Positions 13,543 through 23,624 of a stretch of 64,000 nucleotides of DNA are shown here, piece after piece. Each line of letters opens with the position of its first letter. Positions within the stretch are counted from its first letter, which is position 1. The translations under genes and the position numbers were made by a program. The DNA comes from Mariniblastus sp. (GTDB lineage Bacteria; Planctomycetota; Planctomycetia; Pirellulales; Pirellulaceae). The notes under the pieces are model-generated. The model was not told the origin of the DNA. It worked only from the letters and a program-made list of their open reading frames with translations, and did no database searches. The stretch covers positions 1-64,000 of the forward strand of contig JAKVBG010000020.1 in assembly GCA_022447605.1 (NCBI GenBank), read 5' to 3'.

Positions 13543-14268
13543 TCAACCTGGACCCCCACCATCCGGTTCGTAAGGGCCCCGGTCCACCTGCTCGACTTGC
13601 ACCCCGTCGGAAGTCGGGCGGAACTGGTAAATCCGATCCGCATATTTTTCGAACAGCCCAATGTCATGATGGCTGATCATGATGATCTGAAAATCGAGTT
13701 CCCGAGCAGCCTGGTGGACCATTTTGACCAGTCGGGGCACGCGGTCCGGCTTCAGCCAACAGTCCTGCTCATCGAGCACCAGGAAGCGGCGATGTTCCTG
13801 TTCATCCAACTGCGCCAAGGCAAATAATCGCAATCCGACACTCAGGATATTCTGCACCGACCCGCCCTGACCGCGGTAAATGTCCTCGGAGTGTCCATCC
13901 TTCTCGATCGAGAATTCGACCACAGCCGAGTTGTTCTTGTAGGCCGGGGTCGCCTTGAACTCGATCGGCTGTTCCAACACCTCCTGCAAACCGATCGTCA
14001 ACTTCTCTTGCAGGATATTCAATGTCTCGCTGAACAACTGCTGACTCAACACGTCGAGCGCTTCGCCGACCTCATCGGATATCCCCAGGAACTCCTCCAG
14101 CGCCGCGATCTTGGCCTCGGTCTGCTGCAGCGATTTCACACGATCCCGCCGTTGGAAATTCAGGTACTGGATCCGGTCGCGCAACTCCTGCTGCCGACGG
14201 GATAATTCCCGCCCCCGTTCCGCCGCGGCCGGCTGATCCTGTTTTCGCTCTGTGGAAGGTCCGCCCAT
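13543..14268 (-). CDS. C-terminal half of a split Rad50/SbcC-like ATPase
   Basis: A 241-residue protein with a coiled-coil N-terminus (about 12-70) and the C-terminal ATPase lobe of Rad50/SMC proteins: an atypical ABC signature (RGQGGSVQNILSVGLR in place of LSGGE, about 150-165), Walker B with catalytic Glu (RRFLVLDEQD) and an H-loop (IIMISHHD). There is no Walker A in this chain; it is supplied by the gene at 15571-16797. Nucleotide hydrolysis would therefore need association of the two proteins. The ATG at 14268 follows the TAA of the coiled-coil gene by four bases; an in-frame upstream TTG is less likely. It is the last gene of the operon, ending in a hairpin shared with glgB. Confidence 0.85.
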   Translation of the reverse strand: MGGPSTERKQDQPAAAERGRELSRRQQELRDRIQYLNFQRRDRVKSLQQTEAKIAALEEFLGISDEVGEALDVLSQQLFSETLNILQEKLTIGLQEVLEQPIEFKATPAYKNNSAVVEFSIEKDGHSEDIYRGQGGSVQNILSVGLRLFALAQLDEQEHRRFLVLDEQDCWLKPDRVPRLVKMVHQAARELDFQIIMISHHDIGLFEKYADRIYQFRPTSDGVQVEQVDRGPYEPDGGGPG

Positions 14269-14272
14269 CGTT

Positions 14273-14599
14273 TTAGTCGTCCGCCTCTTCCGGGTCCACC
14301 GGCGCAAACTGGTTTTCGATCTCCTTCAATTTCCCCTCGATGCCGTCCAGGCTCGCCTCGTAACGGGCGCGCTTCTCCTCGTTCTCCTTCTGCATCGAGG
14401 CCAGCTTTTTTTCCAGTTCCGCCACATCGTCGGTGCCGAACTGCTGGCGCGATTGCTCCTGCAATTCATCCAGCTGTTTCTGGGCAGCCTCCTGGCGGGC
14501 CTCGATCCGGGTTCGTTCATGCGACAACTCGTCGAAACGGGCCTGCAGCGCCTCGATCGCCTGCTGTTCCTCCGTTTTGCCCGATACGTTCTTATTCAT
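14273..14599 (-). CDS. Small coiled-coil protein of the split-Rad50 operon
   Basis: A 108-residue, highly charged protein predicted to be almost entirely helical: two heptad-rich segments (about 8-50 and 57-94) separated by QQFGTDDVAE, a likely helical turn, and an acidic tail. It has no ATPase motif or CxxC. Its place between the nuclease gene (8-base overlap at 14592-14599) and the ATPase C-half (4-base gap) suggests that it supplies the descending coiled-coil arm that a single-chain Rad50 would carry between hook and C-terminal lobe. That role is inference. A good ribosome-binding site (AGGTGGAAG) precedes the ATG. Confidence 0.75.
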   Translation of the reverse strand: MNKNVSGKTEEQQAIEALQARFDELSHERTRIEARQEAAQKQLDELQEQSRQQFGTDDVAELEKKLASMQKENEEKRARYEASLDGIEGKLKEIENQFAPVDPEEADD

Positions 14600-15578
14600 C
14601 TTCCACCTGTTTCGCTAGGGACATGATTTCATCGGCAACCGGCTGGGGAAATTCGACCAGCTGCTCTTCCAGGAAGCGGAACAGGCCGGCGCCACTCTCC
14701 GTCTTCCGCAACAACATCTCCTTGAGACCGCTGATGAAATCGGACGGCTGCTCCCCATCCCCGGCAGGGAGGACGGCAGCGTGGAACACTTCATCAAACG
14801 GCTGGTGCGGGATCTCCACGTACTGCGTTTCAAACTTCCCCTCCACGACATCCGCCCGCAGGACCGCCGGCACATGCTGGCGATTCGCCTCACTCCGCGA
14901 GCGCCGGCTGATGCTGCCGGGCGTCATCCAGTGAGTTTGACCCTCGACCACCGGGTCGAGCCGACGGTGGATATGCCCGTTGACCAACAGTTGGACGTTT
15001 TCGATCTCGCGGGGACGAAAACGGCCCGCATCGTAACCGGGCAAATCGACATCATGGTGCGTCACCCAGGCGACCAGAGGCTTGTCGTCAAACAACGTCC
15101 CCTGGCCAAAGCGGTCGACCGGAAATTCCCGGGGGACTTCCTGCCGGTACGACGAACCGCCCACCACAACCTGGACACCATTCATCTCACCCGACCAGGG
15201 GTTTTCCGCACTGACCAGTTGCAGGCATCCGGCCCGCACCAGCAAAGCGAGGGAATCGCGATCCGACAGAACCGGGTCCGCGCAATCATGATTCCCGTAA
15301 ATCCCGACCGCCCCGGTCTCGAGCAGCAAATCCATCAGTCGGACGAGCATCCAGTTCGAGTTTTCCCGCGGCTTTTCAAACAGGTCACCAAGAAAAACGG
15401 GTAGCAATTTCTCTTGCCGAGCATAATCGAGGCACCACTTCAATTTGTCCAGGATCACCTGCGGGTAATCGTCCTTCCGGAAACCGGGTTGGCGATTTTC
15501 CACATGCGGATCACCGATGAACAACAGACCTGTCAGCCCGGTTGTTTGATGCTTCTGTTTCCGCAACGACTCAACCAT
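14592..15578 (-). CDS. Mre11/SbcD-like metallophosphoesterase nuclease
   Basis: A 328-residue calcineurin-like phosphoesterase with all the phosphodiesterase motifs in order: GDPH (about 22-25), GDLF (about 64-67), GNHD (about 95-98), THHD (about 173-176) and GHIH (about 200-203). These form the two-manganese site of Mre11/SbcD nucleases. A C-terminal region of about 120 residues contains helices that could bind the Rad50-type coiled coil. The start overlaps the stop of the Rad50 N-half gene by 8 bases and the end overlaps the coiled-coil gene by 8 bases, so the four genes form one tightly coupled operon. Expected role: exo/endonuclease of a DNA-end processing complex. Confidence 0.88.
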   Translation of the reverse strand: MVESLRKQKHQTTGLTGLLFIGDPHVENRQPGFRKDDYPQVILDKLKWCLDYARQEKLLPVFLGDLFEKPRENSNWMLVRLMDLLLETGAVGIYGNHDCADPVLSDRDSLALLVRAGCLQLVSAENPWSGEMNGVQVVVGGSSYRQEVPREFPVDRFGQGTLFDDKPLVAWVTHHDVDLPGYDAGRFRPREIENVQLLVNGHIHRRLDPVVEGQTHWMTPGSISRRSRSEANRQHVPAVLRADVVEGKFETQYVEIPHQPFDEVFHAAVLPAGDGEQPSDFISGLKEMLLRKTESGAGLFRFLEEQLVEFPQPVADEIMSLAKQVEDE

Positions 15579-16797
15579 CGGCTACCCCCGTTTTGAGGTG
15601 CTGTCGGTGAGCCATCCAGTCTTGCGCATCGAGCGCCTGACCACAGGCCGGGCAACTCGGGTTCTGTGCGACCCATTGCTCGATTTCGGATTTGACTTTT
15701 GCCCACTGACGCTCGGTCTCCCGGCGCGCCTGATCCAGCTTTTCCAATTCGCCCTGCTGCTTCCGGATACCTGCCAGACAGACTTGCAAACGATCGCTCG
15801 GAATCCAGGCGGGAGGCGGTTCGATCGACTGTAGCAAACTGCCGGCCTGGTGTTGCGATTGCAACTCGGTCTCCGTCTTCCCGAGCTGCCGGATCATGTC
15901 GGCGACGTCCGCGCAGGCGTGGAACGACGGCGGGCTCTCGAGGGAGAGCAGGCATTCCTGCTCTTGCTGCAAACGGCCGGCGACTCGTTCGGCACGGCGG
16001 CAATCCTCCAATAACCGTTGCAGTTCGTCCGCCGGCTGCCAAGCAGGGAGCGGGGCCAGTTCCCCCAGGCATTCCCGCTTCAGCTCCAGGACTTCGTGCT
16101 CCCTGGCGATGTGGCGCCCGGTGGTAATCTGCTCCTGCAAGTCGGCCATCGCTCCCTGCAGACGCTCGATCTCCGACCCCCACTGACAAACCTGTTCGAA
16201 AGTCTGCTCGATCTCAGGCACCGGCTCCAGCAACTCGACCTGCCGTCTCCATTCGTCCCGTTCCTGGCAGCGGGTCTTCTGCTCTCGCTTCGCGTCCCGG
16301 ACTTTCTGTTTGTGCAAGGACTGCATCTTCATCATTCGCCCCGCATCCGACGAGGAAGCGAAAAAATCGGCCGCCGTCCGGGCCGAGTCCCGGATCAGGA
16401 AAACAGGGGATTTCTGTTCCCCGAAATGGATATCGACCTCGTCCCGATCACATGCCACCTTCGGCAGACGGAGCACACGGTCCAATTCCTCCGGTTGCCC
16501 GGCACTTTTCAGGCGGTCGTACGTCGTCCCGTTGATCTCGTAGGCCGGGCCACCACTTTTCCCCCGCCTCCAGAGGATCGTATCCCCTTGGTCGGTCGTT
16601 ACCCGAACCTGACATTTCCTGGTTTCGTGACGGAGGACATACGTCGAATTTTCGTTGTGGCTGAGGATCTGCAGCGCGGCGATCACGGCACTCTTGCCAC
16701 AGTTGTTGGGACCCACCAGCACAGTCAGGCCACGGGCCGGTTCAATCACCGTATGCCCGTGAGACATGAAATTTTCCAGCTCGATCCTGGCGATCAC
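15571..16797 (-). CDS. N-terminal half of a split Rad50/SbcC-like ATPase with CxxC hook
   Basis: A 408-residue protein beginning MIARIELENFMSHGHT, the usual first strand of Rad50/SMC ATPases. Walker A is GPNNCGKS (29-36); a Q-loop-like region lies near 122-132. A long helical region follows and the chain ends shortly after CPACG (C382, C385), the zinc-hook motif of Rad50. There is no signature or Walker B. The GTG at 16797 is chosen because GAGGGAG sits 8 bases upstream and the protein then starts exactly where homologues do. Within the helical arm, a proline-aromatic element recurs every 39 residues (PLPAW 249, SPPSF 288, PPPAW 327). First gene of the four-gene operon. Confidence 0.87.
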   Translation of the reverse strand: MIARIELENFMSHGHTVIEPARGLTVLVGPNNCGKSAVIAALQILSHNENSTYVLRHETRKCQVRVTTDQGDTILWRRGKSGGPAYEINGTTYDRLKSAGQPEELDRVLRLPKVACDRDEVDIHFGEQKSPVFLIRDSARTAADFFASSSDAGRMMKMQSLHKQKVRDAKREQKTRCQERDEWRRQVELLEPVPEIEQTFEQVCQWGSEIERLQGAMADLQEQITTGRHIAREHEVLELKRECLGELAPLPAWQPADELQRLLEDCRRAERVAGRLQQEQECLLSLESPPSFHACADVADMIRQLGKTETELQSQHQAGSLLQSIEPPPAWIPSDRLQVCLAGIRKQQGELEKLDQARRETERQWAKVKSEIEQWVAQNPSCPACGQALDAQDWMAHRQHLKTGVADG

Positions 16798-22343: not shown

Positions 22344-22424
22344 AACGGTGTCTTTTTTACCGTTACACATTAACTACTATCTCGACAAATCCTGCCGGCC
22401 AGCTCCAATAGGATCCGGCTGGCC
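22344..22424. promoter_or_regulatory. Two inverted repeats in the fhs / TraB-family divergent region
   Basis: AACGGT (22344-22349) and ACCGTT (22359-22364) form a perfect 6-9-6 inverted repeat, and GGCCAGC (22397-22403) pairs with GCTGGCC (22418-22424). Both lie 80-165 bases upstream of fhs and 170-250 bases upstream of the divergent gene. They could be operators or leader RNA hairpins. I do not recognise a known riboswitch. Confidence 0.35.
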
Positions 22425-22595
22425 AGGTCCGGGTCATCAAAAAAGAACTTCTCAACGTAGCTACGAATCGACGCTGTGGGCCGTTTTGATCAAAAAAATT
22501 CGGTTTTCGGTCTAAAACACCCAATCAAATTCAATTCGGGACGAATATCCGCCCGTGCCGCTTGATCCGTTTCAAATCTGCCTGGAAAGTTCCCT

Positions 22596-23624
22596 ATGAA
22601 GACTCCACCACTGCAGAAGCTCTTATGGCTGACCGCTTTTTCGCTCTATTCCACCCCCGGCCTGCTGGGTCAACTCTCGCTACCCACCTCTCCTGTTGAG
22701 GATAATCAGAAAGAAACGGCCGCCGAAACGAAGCGGACCGAACAGACTGCAACCAGCCGATTCATGCGCCTTCAACGGGATACGGCAGGTGAGCCAACTG
22801 CCTTGCAGACCGCGATCTCCCGTTACCGCGCTGCCGACAGCGACCTGCTGGTCGACTTGATCGGCGCGGTCCATATCGGAGAGGCCGACTATTACCGGCA
22901 GTTGAACCGGCAATTCAGCCAGTACGATATCGTGCTGTATGAACTGGTCGCACCGCCTGGAACTCGGGTTCCGTCCGGCGGTCACTCCGACTCAAACCAT
23001 CCGCTGGCCTGGCTGCAAGGCTCGATGAAAGAGATGCTCGGACTCGAATCCCAGTTGCAGCGGATCGATTACCAGGCTGCCAATTTCCGCCACGCTGACC
23101 TGTCGCCAAAGCAGATCAGCGAGCGCATGGCCGCGCGGGGCGACACCCCGCTGACGGTCGGCCTGTCGGCGATGGCCGATATCCTCCGCCAACAGAACCT
23201 GGCCCAGCGGCAAGCCGAAACCACCGAACCAGACGCGCCCGGACCGCCGGACGTGGTTGAACTGATCGACCAATTGGGCCAACCCCTGGAGCTTAAAAAG
23301 ATGCTCGCCGGCCAATTCACCCAATCCGGAGATCTCTCCCGCCAACTCGGCCCGACACTGAATCAGCTGCTGATCGTCGACCGCAACCAGGCCGCGGTTC
23401 AGGTACTGCAGAAAACGATCAAGGAGGGCCATAAGAAAATTGCCATCTTTTACGGCGCGGCCCACCTGCCCGACTTCGACCAGCGACTGACCGGCCAACT
23501 GAATTTGAAAAAGACTGAATCGACGTGGGTCACCGCCTGGGATTTAACCACGGCCCCCCGCCACAACCACCTTTCCAATCCGAGCTCCATGCTATTCAAA
23601 TTGATGGAATGGATCGATGACTGA
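22596..23624 (+). CDS. TraB/GumN (TIKI) family protein, exported
   Basis: A 342-residue protein with an N-terminal signal peptide. It has the family hallmarks: VDLIGAVHIGEADYY (about 85-99), VLYELVAPPG (about 112-121) and a C-terminal IFYGAAHLPDF (about 291-301), the glycine-histidine and glutamate positions proposed to bind metal in TIKI-type proteases. A variable central part contains LGLESQLQRIDY, also typical. Substrate unknown. The gene ends 8 bases inside the following lipoprotein gene, implying an operon with the two lipoproteins downstream. GGAAAG precedes the ATG. Confidence 0.82.
   Translation: MKTPPLQKLLWLTAFSLYSTPGLLGQLSLPTSPVEDNQKETAAETKRTEQTATSRFMRLQRDTAGEPTALQTAISRYRAADSDLLVDLIGAVHIGEADYYRQLNRQFSQYDIVLYELVAPPGTRVPSGGHSDSNHPLAWLQGSMKEMLGLESQLQRIDYQAANFRHADLSPKQISERMAARGDTPLTVGLSAMADILRQQNLAQRQAETTEPDAPGPPDVVELIDQLGQPLELKKMLAGQFTQSGDLSRQLGPTLNQLLIVDRNQAAVQVLQKTIKEGHKKIAIFYGAAHLPDFDQRLTGQLNLKKTESTWVTAWDLTTAPRHNHLSNPSSMLFKLMEWIDD

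Follow-up and report, generated by a model that had tools for sequence, protein, structure and literature searches.

A four-gene locus of the planctomycete Mariniblastus sp. quite probably encodes an Mre11-Rad50 (SbcD-SbcC) DNA-end nuclease of a lineage of its own, with Rad50 split into two chains and an ATPase head assembled in trans. The analysis covered a stretch of 64,000 nucleotides, hereafter the window (assembly GCA_022447605.1, contig JAKVBG010000020.1, positions 1 to 64,000). The four genes lie on its minus strand at 13543-16797, in the order N-half ATPase, nuclease, coiled coil and C-half ATPase. The N-half and nuclease genes overlap by 8 bases, as do the nuclease and coiled-coil genes, and a gap of 4 bases precedes the C-half gene, exactly the spacing given in a preliminary description made from the sequence alone. 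That description had proposed a four-gene split Rad50-Mre11 operon, and profile matches, folds, conserved residues and the recurrence of the four-gene set bore this out. The division of Rad50 over two genes, the recurrence of the set and the intactness of all four genes are direct observations. The features are as follows.

15571..16797, minus strand: N-half, 408 residues, GTG start; Rad50/SbcC lobe I (Walker A, Q-loop), arm and chain-terminal CPxC hook (Pfam AAA_23, phmmer against PDB, Foldseek)
16690..16713, minus strand: Walker A GPNNCGKS, N-half residues 29-36; G29, G34, K35 and S36 invariant in 28/28 aligned rows
15664..16053, minus strand: arm of 39-residue helical repeats and hook stem helix; proline turns at about residues 248, 288 and 326
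15643..15654, minus strand: CPAC hook, residues 382-385, 23 residues ahead of the stop; C382 and C385 invariant in 28/28 rows
14592..15578, minus strand: Mre11/SbcD-type calcineurin-like phosphoesterase, 328 residues, five motif blocks intact (Pfam Metallophos, SbcD-like PHROG family, invariant residues)
14273..14599, minus strand: free coiled-coil subunit, 108 residues, with an (F/Y)G(T/S) loop conserved between two helices (alignment of 15 rows; helices predicted from sequence)
13543..14268, minus strand: C-half, 241 residues; a helix (14-98) that leads into Rad50 lobe II, which bears the signature, Walker B and H-loop (AlphaFold, Foldseek)
13846..13872, minus strand: ABC signature region GQGGSVQNI, C-half residues 133-141; G136 invariant in 38/38 rows, G135 present in at least 90%
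13762..13785, minus strand: Walker B FLVLDEQD, residues 162-169; D166 and E167 invariant in 38/38 rows
13663..13680, minus strand: H-loop MISHHD, residues 197-202; H200 invariant in 38/38 rows

Rad50 is divided over two genes

The motifs of an ABC-type ATP site are distributed over separate genes, with the Walker A and Q-loop on the N-half and the signature, Walker B and H-loop on the C-half; therefore, a complete ATP site should need both halves. The N-half matched Pfam AAA_23 (E-value (E) 4.5e-12), and the best phmmer match to it among PDB sequences was Rad50 (1us8_A/1f2t_A, E 1.1e-3). Its AlphaFold model, built with 28 alignment rows, reached a predicted local distance difference test score (pLDDT) of 80.0 and a predicted template modelling score (pTM) of 0.37, and a Foldseek search with this model returned Rad50 lobe I as the best match (1f2u_C, E 2.6e-6). 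The C-half model (pLDDT 88.3, pTM 0.71; 37 rows) was closest to lobe II of the Pyrococcus furiosus Mre11-Rad50 structure (9a9j_B, E 4.4e-8), so that the lobe I and lobe II folds of Rad50 were both recovered; the rows given to AlphaFold were a chosen subset of the available sequences. The C-half also matched an 'ATPase' family of PHROG (phrog_15167, E 2e-7). Its start was placed at an ATG, 13 codons downstream of the start of the mechanically called open reading frame (ORF), and the bacterial C-halves measured 208-249 residues, with one exception of 283 that contains undetermined letters. The single-chain SbcC model NF003034 gave the N-half 33.2 of 700 bits, and the N-half thus failed as a single-chain SbcC.

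The four genes are conserved as intact reading frames. Between the window and the related locus L002, nonsynonymous divergence (dN) was 0.15-0.31 across the four genes, while synonymous divergence (dS) was 1.8 for the N-half and 2.8 for the C-half and saturated for the nuclease and coiled coil; few amino-acid changes against near-saturated synonymous change point to purifying selection on all four. Because the gene order recurs and dN is low relative to near-saturated dS, a chance arrangement was dismissed. In 17 loci with both genes (L001-L017), the N-half/nuclease overlap was 8 bases in 14, 11 bases in two and 4 bases in one, counts that are biased to small overlaps as a script took, of the possible start codons, the one closest to the upstream stop. 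Frameshifting or decay of an sbcC gene was ruled out, since the nuclease gene sits between the halves and the identical split recurs.

Nuclease and coiled-coil subunit

The nuclease matched Pfam Metallophos (E 5e-7) and an SbcD-like PHROG family (E 5e-4), while TIGR00619 (SbcD) did not match it at E up to 1 and a phmmer search of PDB sequences with it returned no match. Residues D23, H25, D65, N96, H97, H175, H202 and H204 were invariant in 19/19 aligned rows, so that the five motif blocks of SbcD/Mre11 are all present, as had been stated for the nuclease encoded between the halves. The invariant residues of the C-half likewise agree with the signature, Walker B and H-loop first read there.

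The 108-residue free coiled coil of the preliminary description recurs at the matching place in related loci. Across bacterial loci it measured 92-118 residues, while the arm of the N-half spans 189-508. It was considered as the missing strand of the arm and rejected as such, since its length range does not follow that of the arm (a comparison of ranges, with no correlation computed): its length stays near 100 while the arm varies by steps of about 39, and it is therefore probably neither the returning strand of the arm nor its missing half. A better description is that of an accessory chain that regularly occupies one place, perhaps at the root of the arm or at the nuclease.

The N-half arm and hook

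The preliminary description had the N-half carry Walker A and end just past a CPACG hook, and indeed CPAC occupies residues 382-385, with the stop 23 residues on. C382, P383 and C385 were invariant in 15/15 aligned rows. A CxxC motif was found inside the last 60 residues in 52/54 bacterial N-halves (CPxC in 43; the 54 include at least one locus counted twice, L015/L050) and in 23/23 viral N-halves taken as complete. By this motif, the N-halves carry the putative zinc hook of SbcC/Rad50. The N-halves at L058:450-1889 and L064:2362-4626 are without any CxxC, and their tails differ from the others and resemble each other, as in a hookless branch. The tail behind the hook holds HxH or HH in 26/54 bacterial N-halves, with His-rich ends of the GHxH type in L072, L010 and L009, for example, and it possibly forms a further metal site.

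The arm is built differently from that of canonical SbcC. Proline turns in bacterial N-halves are mostly spaced by 38-40 residues, and the self-similarity of 45 dereplicated bacterial arms peaked at an offset of 39 (z 59 against 20 shuffles; z 17 at the next offset), while a canonical SbcC frame (1082 residues) and an SMC-like frame (910 residues), one of each, gave z 0.4 at the same offset. The 39-residue period was absent in 14 viral arms, in which the peak was at 47 (z 13). Arm lengths of 43 hook-bearing N-halves (189-508 residues) clustered at steps of about 39-40 residues (R 0.80 at 39.5-40), compared with R below 0.43 in 99% of 1000 random length sets; the rows are related, so no probability is implied. 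Bacterial arm lengths thus appear to differ by whole 39-residue units. Both odd and even numbers of units occur; therefore a plain zigzag arm, in which an extra helix would return the hook to the head, seems unlikely. A long antiparallel coiled coil contributed by both halves was not found, as the C-half has the single helix 14-98 and the N-half arm consists of the 39-residue repeats.

Recurrence and linkage of the four genes in bacteria

The recurrence of the gene order in other planctomycetes, which the preliminary description had named as a check, was found, and it extended to other phyla. Among 60 near relatives (the window's genome included), the nuclease was detected at E up to 1e-5 in 18, namely the window's genome, two from other families and 15 more from the genus itself, among which the locus of G015 is cut by a contig end. 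A scan of a genome collection gave 524 pattern stretches; 124 were confirmed with the C-half alignment, and the best 80 were retained, at least 12 of which were already among the loci of the near relatives. Gene content was called with profiles made from the genes of the relatives, and 60 of the 80 loci held N-half, nuclease, coiled coil and C-half in that order, seven were cut by contig ends (L038, L062, L068, L077, L080, L094 and L102) and 13 had the C-half alone in the flank. Across the phylum, the nuclease was detected at E up to 1e-40 in 11/294 genomes. By their records, the carriers belong to Planctomycetota, Desulfobacterota and other deltaproteobacteria, unspecified proteobacteria, Spirochaetes, Sumerlaeia, Poribacteria, Bacillota/Clostridiales and Parachlamydiaceae. 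Most of these genomes are metagenome bins, so that some assignments may reflect misbinning; isolates account for four (Thalassoglobus neptunius, L083; Rhodopirellula rubra, L111; Aporhodopirellula aestuarii, L110; Desulfacinum hydrothermale, L107). No fifth gene recurs beside the four: among 167 neighbouring ORFs from 49 loci, the largest family was present in four loci, and a dedicated partner was thus rejected.

The genomes with the C-half alone in the flank are informative about the split itself. In 11 of these 13, a search with the nuclease alignment found the nuclease elsewhere in the genome, and the N-half adjoined that distant nuclease in 10/11, the exception (L149) being a contig end. 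The C-half is thus unlinked from the nuclease in these genomes, and from the N-half in 10 of them, which argues that the two halves can exist as free chains and be retained together even where their genes are not linked; given such gene positions, frameshifting cannot join the two. In G069-G071, the coiled coil and nuclease are on different contigs, and the coiled-coil locus shares nothing with the C-half locus over the flanks examined. Pirellula-type genomes (L097-L099, L169-L171) have the four genes scattered over three places. Distances between nucleases correlated with those between C-halves (r 0.87, n=66; highest of 1000 permutations 0.118), also in nine unlinked genomes (r 0.96).

Canonical SbcCD in the carrier genomes

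With TIGR00618, TIGR00619 and PF13558, neither canonical SbcC nor canonical SbcD was recognised in the genome of the window (rated 94% complete). The only match to TIGR00618 was an SMC-like frame of 1214 residues (E 6.2e-6), and TIGR00619 gave one weak match (3.3e-4), a phosphoesterase without GNHD. At L157:4244-9084 (G000:C121), this phosphoesterase has SAGEAA in place of GNHD and adjoins an SMC-like ATPase frame of 1206 residues; the two may be a pair of the YhaO/YhaN type with a dead nuclease. TIGR00618 was above its cut-off in 0/60 relatives and also in only 1/14 controls. PF13558, which covers the canonical SbcC Walker B, was found in 2/16 split-bearing genomes, the window's not among them, and in 12/14 controls. 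An intact single-chain sbcC/sbcD elsewhere combined with decay of the locus in relatives, an outcome that the preliminary description had set against a split system, was not seen; the locus is intact in the relatives. A statistical exchange between the split set and canonical SbcCD was unsupported, with canonical SbcD above its cut-off in 2/60 genomes, the split nuclease in 18/60 and an overlap of 0, where about 0.6 is expected by chance. At G017:C67:11562-11829, a 54-residue frame with the start of SbcD lies directly beside a 79-residue frame with the end of SbcC, which looks like the scar of a deleted sbcDC.

In a control at E up to 100, the N and C profiles reported neither E. coli SbcC, nor the canonical SbcC of G003, nor the YhaN-like protein of the window's genome; T4 gp46 was reached by the C profile at 0.64 and went unreported by the N profile. 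In a further control, the G003 SbcC was unmatched at E up to 10, and the N profile matched SMC-like and other ABC frames at E 2.1e-5 to 0.88.

Diverged versions in phages

Viral scans yielded 23 loci by the C-half and six by the nuclease; two of these (L135 and L143) are one viral contig, and about ten resemble one another, as judged by the sizes of their genes. The N-half, C-half and nuclease were all present in 27/29 viral loci, and 10 loci also gave a coiled-coil match with an E-value of at most 0.01. In Microcystis phage Mvi-JY20, XAI95539-XAI95542 correspond to the N-half, nuclease, coiled coil and C-half, the same order as in the window, with profile E-values of 3.7e-12, 0.0019, 0.24 and 1.6e-5, respectively; its nuclease and coiled coil were assigned partly or mainly by place and size. 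The Mvi-JY20 nuclease, a sequence outside the 19-row alignment, has GQHD instead of GNHD. Bacillus phage vB_BboS-125 has a separate C-half, nuclease and hook-terminated N-half (coiled coil E 0.087), as has the uncultured phage LR745208 (coiled coil 0.91 at best). The nuclease gene of vB_BboS-125 has no annotated coding sequence (L029:8247-9227; NC_048735.1 about 22423-23403), and an AP2-domain gene, possibly a homing element, lies between its N-half and small coiled-coil gene (L029:6407-6979). Microbacterium phage Magritte has the C-half, nuclease and coiled coil (1.5e-5), and its N-half was not found within the 21 kb read; in Tunturiibacter phage Tunturi_5, the C-half (E 9.3e-9) was the sole part seen in 24 kb with nine chosen genes tested. 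One phage match (L031) was set aside because, judged by eye, it resembles an ordinary ABC transporter.

Aligned phage rows were 17-23% identical to the window's proteins. In a quick tree of 70 C-halves, 18 phage rows fell on one side of a branch with support 81, and 48 bacterial rows fell together apart from T4 gp46, which sits among them on a branch of length 10; made without bootstrap and with many long branches flagged, this tree is a rough guide. Since the bacterial C-halves stand apart from the phage ones in it, the long-branch T4 gp46 excepted, simple phage cargo was rejected as an account of the locus. The statement that known SbcC and Rad50 are single chains calls for a qualification, as phage records contain diverged split versions that are named otherwise.

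Alternative explanations and proposed mechanism

Several observations weigh against a split Mre11-Rad50 complex. Foldseek matched the N-half model also to SMC, RecF and RecN heads and the C-half model also to SMC heads; the pTM of the N-half model is only 0.37, so that the model does not fix the geometry of the arm; the models cover single chains only, which leaves head assembly in trans a proposal. All Pfam matches of the C-half are below threshold (SMC_N, E 0.0011, 18.8 bits against a cut-off of 40), and the nuclease profile weakly matches T4 gp47 (0.087) and E. coli SbcD (0.41), as expected within one superfamily. The distribution is patchy (18/60 near relatives, 11/294 in the phylum), the hook is absent in 2/54 bacterial N-halves (L058, L064), and canonical SbcC is also present in 2/16 split-bearing genomes by PF13558, with an SbcC-like frame besides the split set in G374. 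Among all 15 genomes searched with the nuclease alignment because the C-half was the sole part at their loci, no nuclease was found in two of the 13 with a lone C-half (G060, G066), nor in those of L077 and L102, where the C-half sits at a contig start. Common descent explains part of the correlation between nuclease and C-half distances.

An anti-phage or anti-plasmid nuclease, whose ATPase would sense foreign DNA ends and whose nuclease would destroy them, is an unlikely alternative that draws on the same patchiness and on database matches. With E up to 1 as the limit, the N-half matched 86 PADLOC families, AriA most strongly (6.8e-10). Among the 25 listed, most cover only about the first 50 residues, but LmuB (6.5e-7) aligns over 2-391; the C-half matched PADLOC mad3 (5.5e-7). 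However, no PADLOC family matched the nuclease at E up to 1, so no known defence system was matched in both parts, no neighbour recurred in the 49 loci (which were not scanned for defence genes), phages themselves carry diverged versions, and PF13558 was absent from 14/16 carriers checked. It is very improbable that the N- and C-halves build no common head and instead act as two independent ABC-like factors, each forming its own dimers. An unlinked C-half and the single-chain models would allow this; however, the halves of one ATP site are complementary, they co-occur in 60/80 loci, and the solved Rad50 heads 1f2t (chains A, B) and 1f2u (chains A-D) list the two lobes, of about 145 residues each, as separate chains. 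The crystallographers made these lobes as separate chains, and they provide a precedent for head assembly in trans. A functionless phage remnant or decayed gene set, for which the split phage versions might speak, is hardly credible given the open frames, the conserved catalytic residues, dN well below dS and the separation of phage from bacterial C-halves in the quick tree (support 81).

That the split Mre11-Rad50 complex assembles in trans, binds zinc, acts as a nuclease and serves in repair is our inference. Lobe I of the N-half and lobe II of the C-half would pair into one ABC head; with ATP, two such heads would close around a dimer of the nuclease, and hydrolysis of the ATP would drive the cutting or resection of DNA ends. 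The N-half arm of 39-residue helical repeats would end in a zinc hook able to join two N-halves, the coiled coil would be an accessory, perhaps at the root of the arm or at the nuclease, and the complex may stand in for canonical SbcCD in most carriers checked. On balance, we lean towards a fuller picture: a separate lineage common to phages and several bacterial phyla, with a head formed in trans, a regular third coiled-coil chain and, in bacteria, an arm that is a hook-ended, one-chain rod of 39-residue tandem repeats, with its length set by whole units, and not a classical coiled coil.

Discussion

The split set shares with E. coli SbcCD (TIGR00618/TIGR00619) and with archaeal and eukaryotic Mre11-Rad50 the Rad50-type ABC motifs, the CxxC hook, an Mre11-type phosphoesterase and the adjacency of the genes. 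It differs from them in its two-chain ATPase with the nuclease gene in between, near-terminal hook, arm of 39-residue repeats and extra coiled coil, and it thus falls outside the single-chain SbcC family by chain make-up and arm. Phage T4 gp46/gp47 is likewise a phage-encoded Rad50/Mre11 pair, but gp46 is one chain. Differently named split halves occur in vB_BboS-125, Mvi-JY20, Magritte and LR745208, all four with a separate C-half and nuclease and three with a hook-terminated N-half; the 39-residue period was absent from the viral arms analysed, the coiled coil is weak or not significant in three of the four phages, and identity is as low as noted above. Within the window's genome, the L157 pair also places a phosphoesterase beside an SMC-like ATPase, but the latter is a single-chain frame and the former is without GNHD.

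Altered chain make-up linked to viruses has a counterpart in Mre11/Rad50 fusions such as Mimivirus R555, where nuclease and ATPase are fused, the opposite of a split (PMC3175470, accessible part); a Bacillus phage fusion and an Anaerostipes fusion are described there as lacking one P-loop segment. A survey of 224 jumbo phages reports that SbcC/SbcD occur almost universally and that subunits of DNA polymerase III and RNA polymerase are found split, and its accessible part makes no mention of a split SbcC (PMC7824862). A term search of the main text on vB_BboS-125 and seven other phages (PMC6375668) found neither SbcC nor Rad50. None of the open-access papers listed names a split Rad50/SbcC (subscription papers and preprints fall outside this scope), and the split Mre11-Rad50 set looks undescribed so far.

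Mre11-Rad50 is seen as a near-universal complex. One Rad50 chain folds back on itself, and both of its ends form one head. The split lineage may preserve, or may have re-created, a state with the Rad50 lobes as separate genes. If this reading is true, a natural system would separate the contributions of fold-back, arm and hook, and structural and single-molecule groups would gain short, separately addressable parts. Phage entries labelled 'hypothetical protein', 'ATPase' and 'exonuclease' would be tied to one complex, and planctomycetes without recognisable SbcCD would have a candidate for DNA-end processing.

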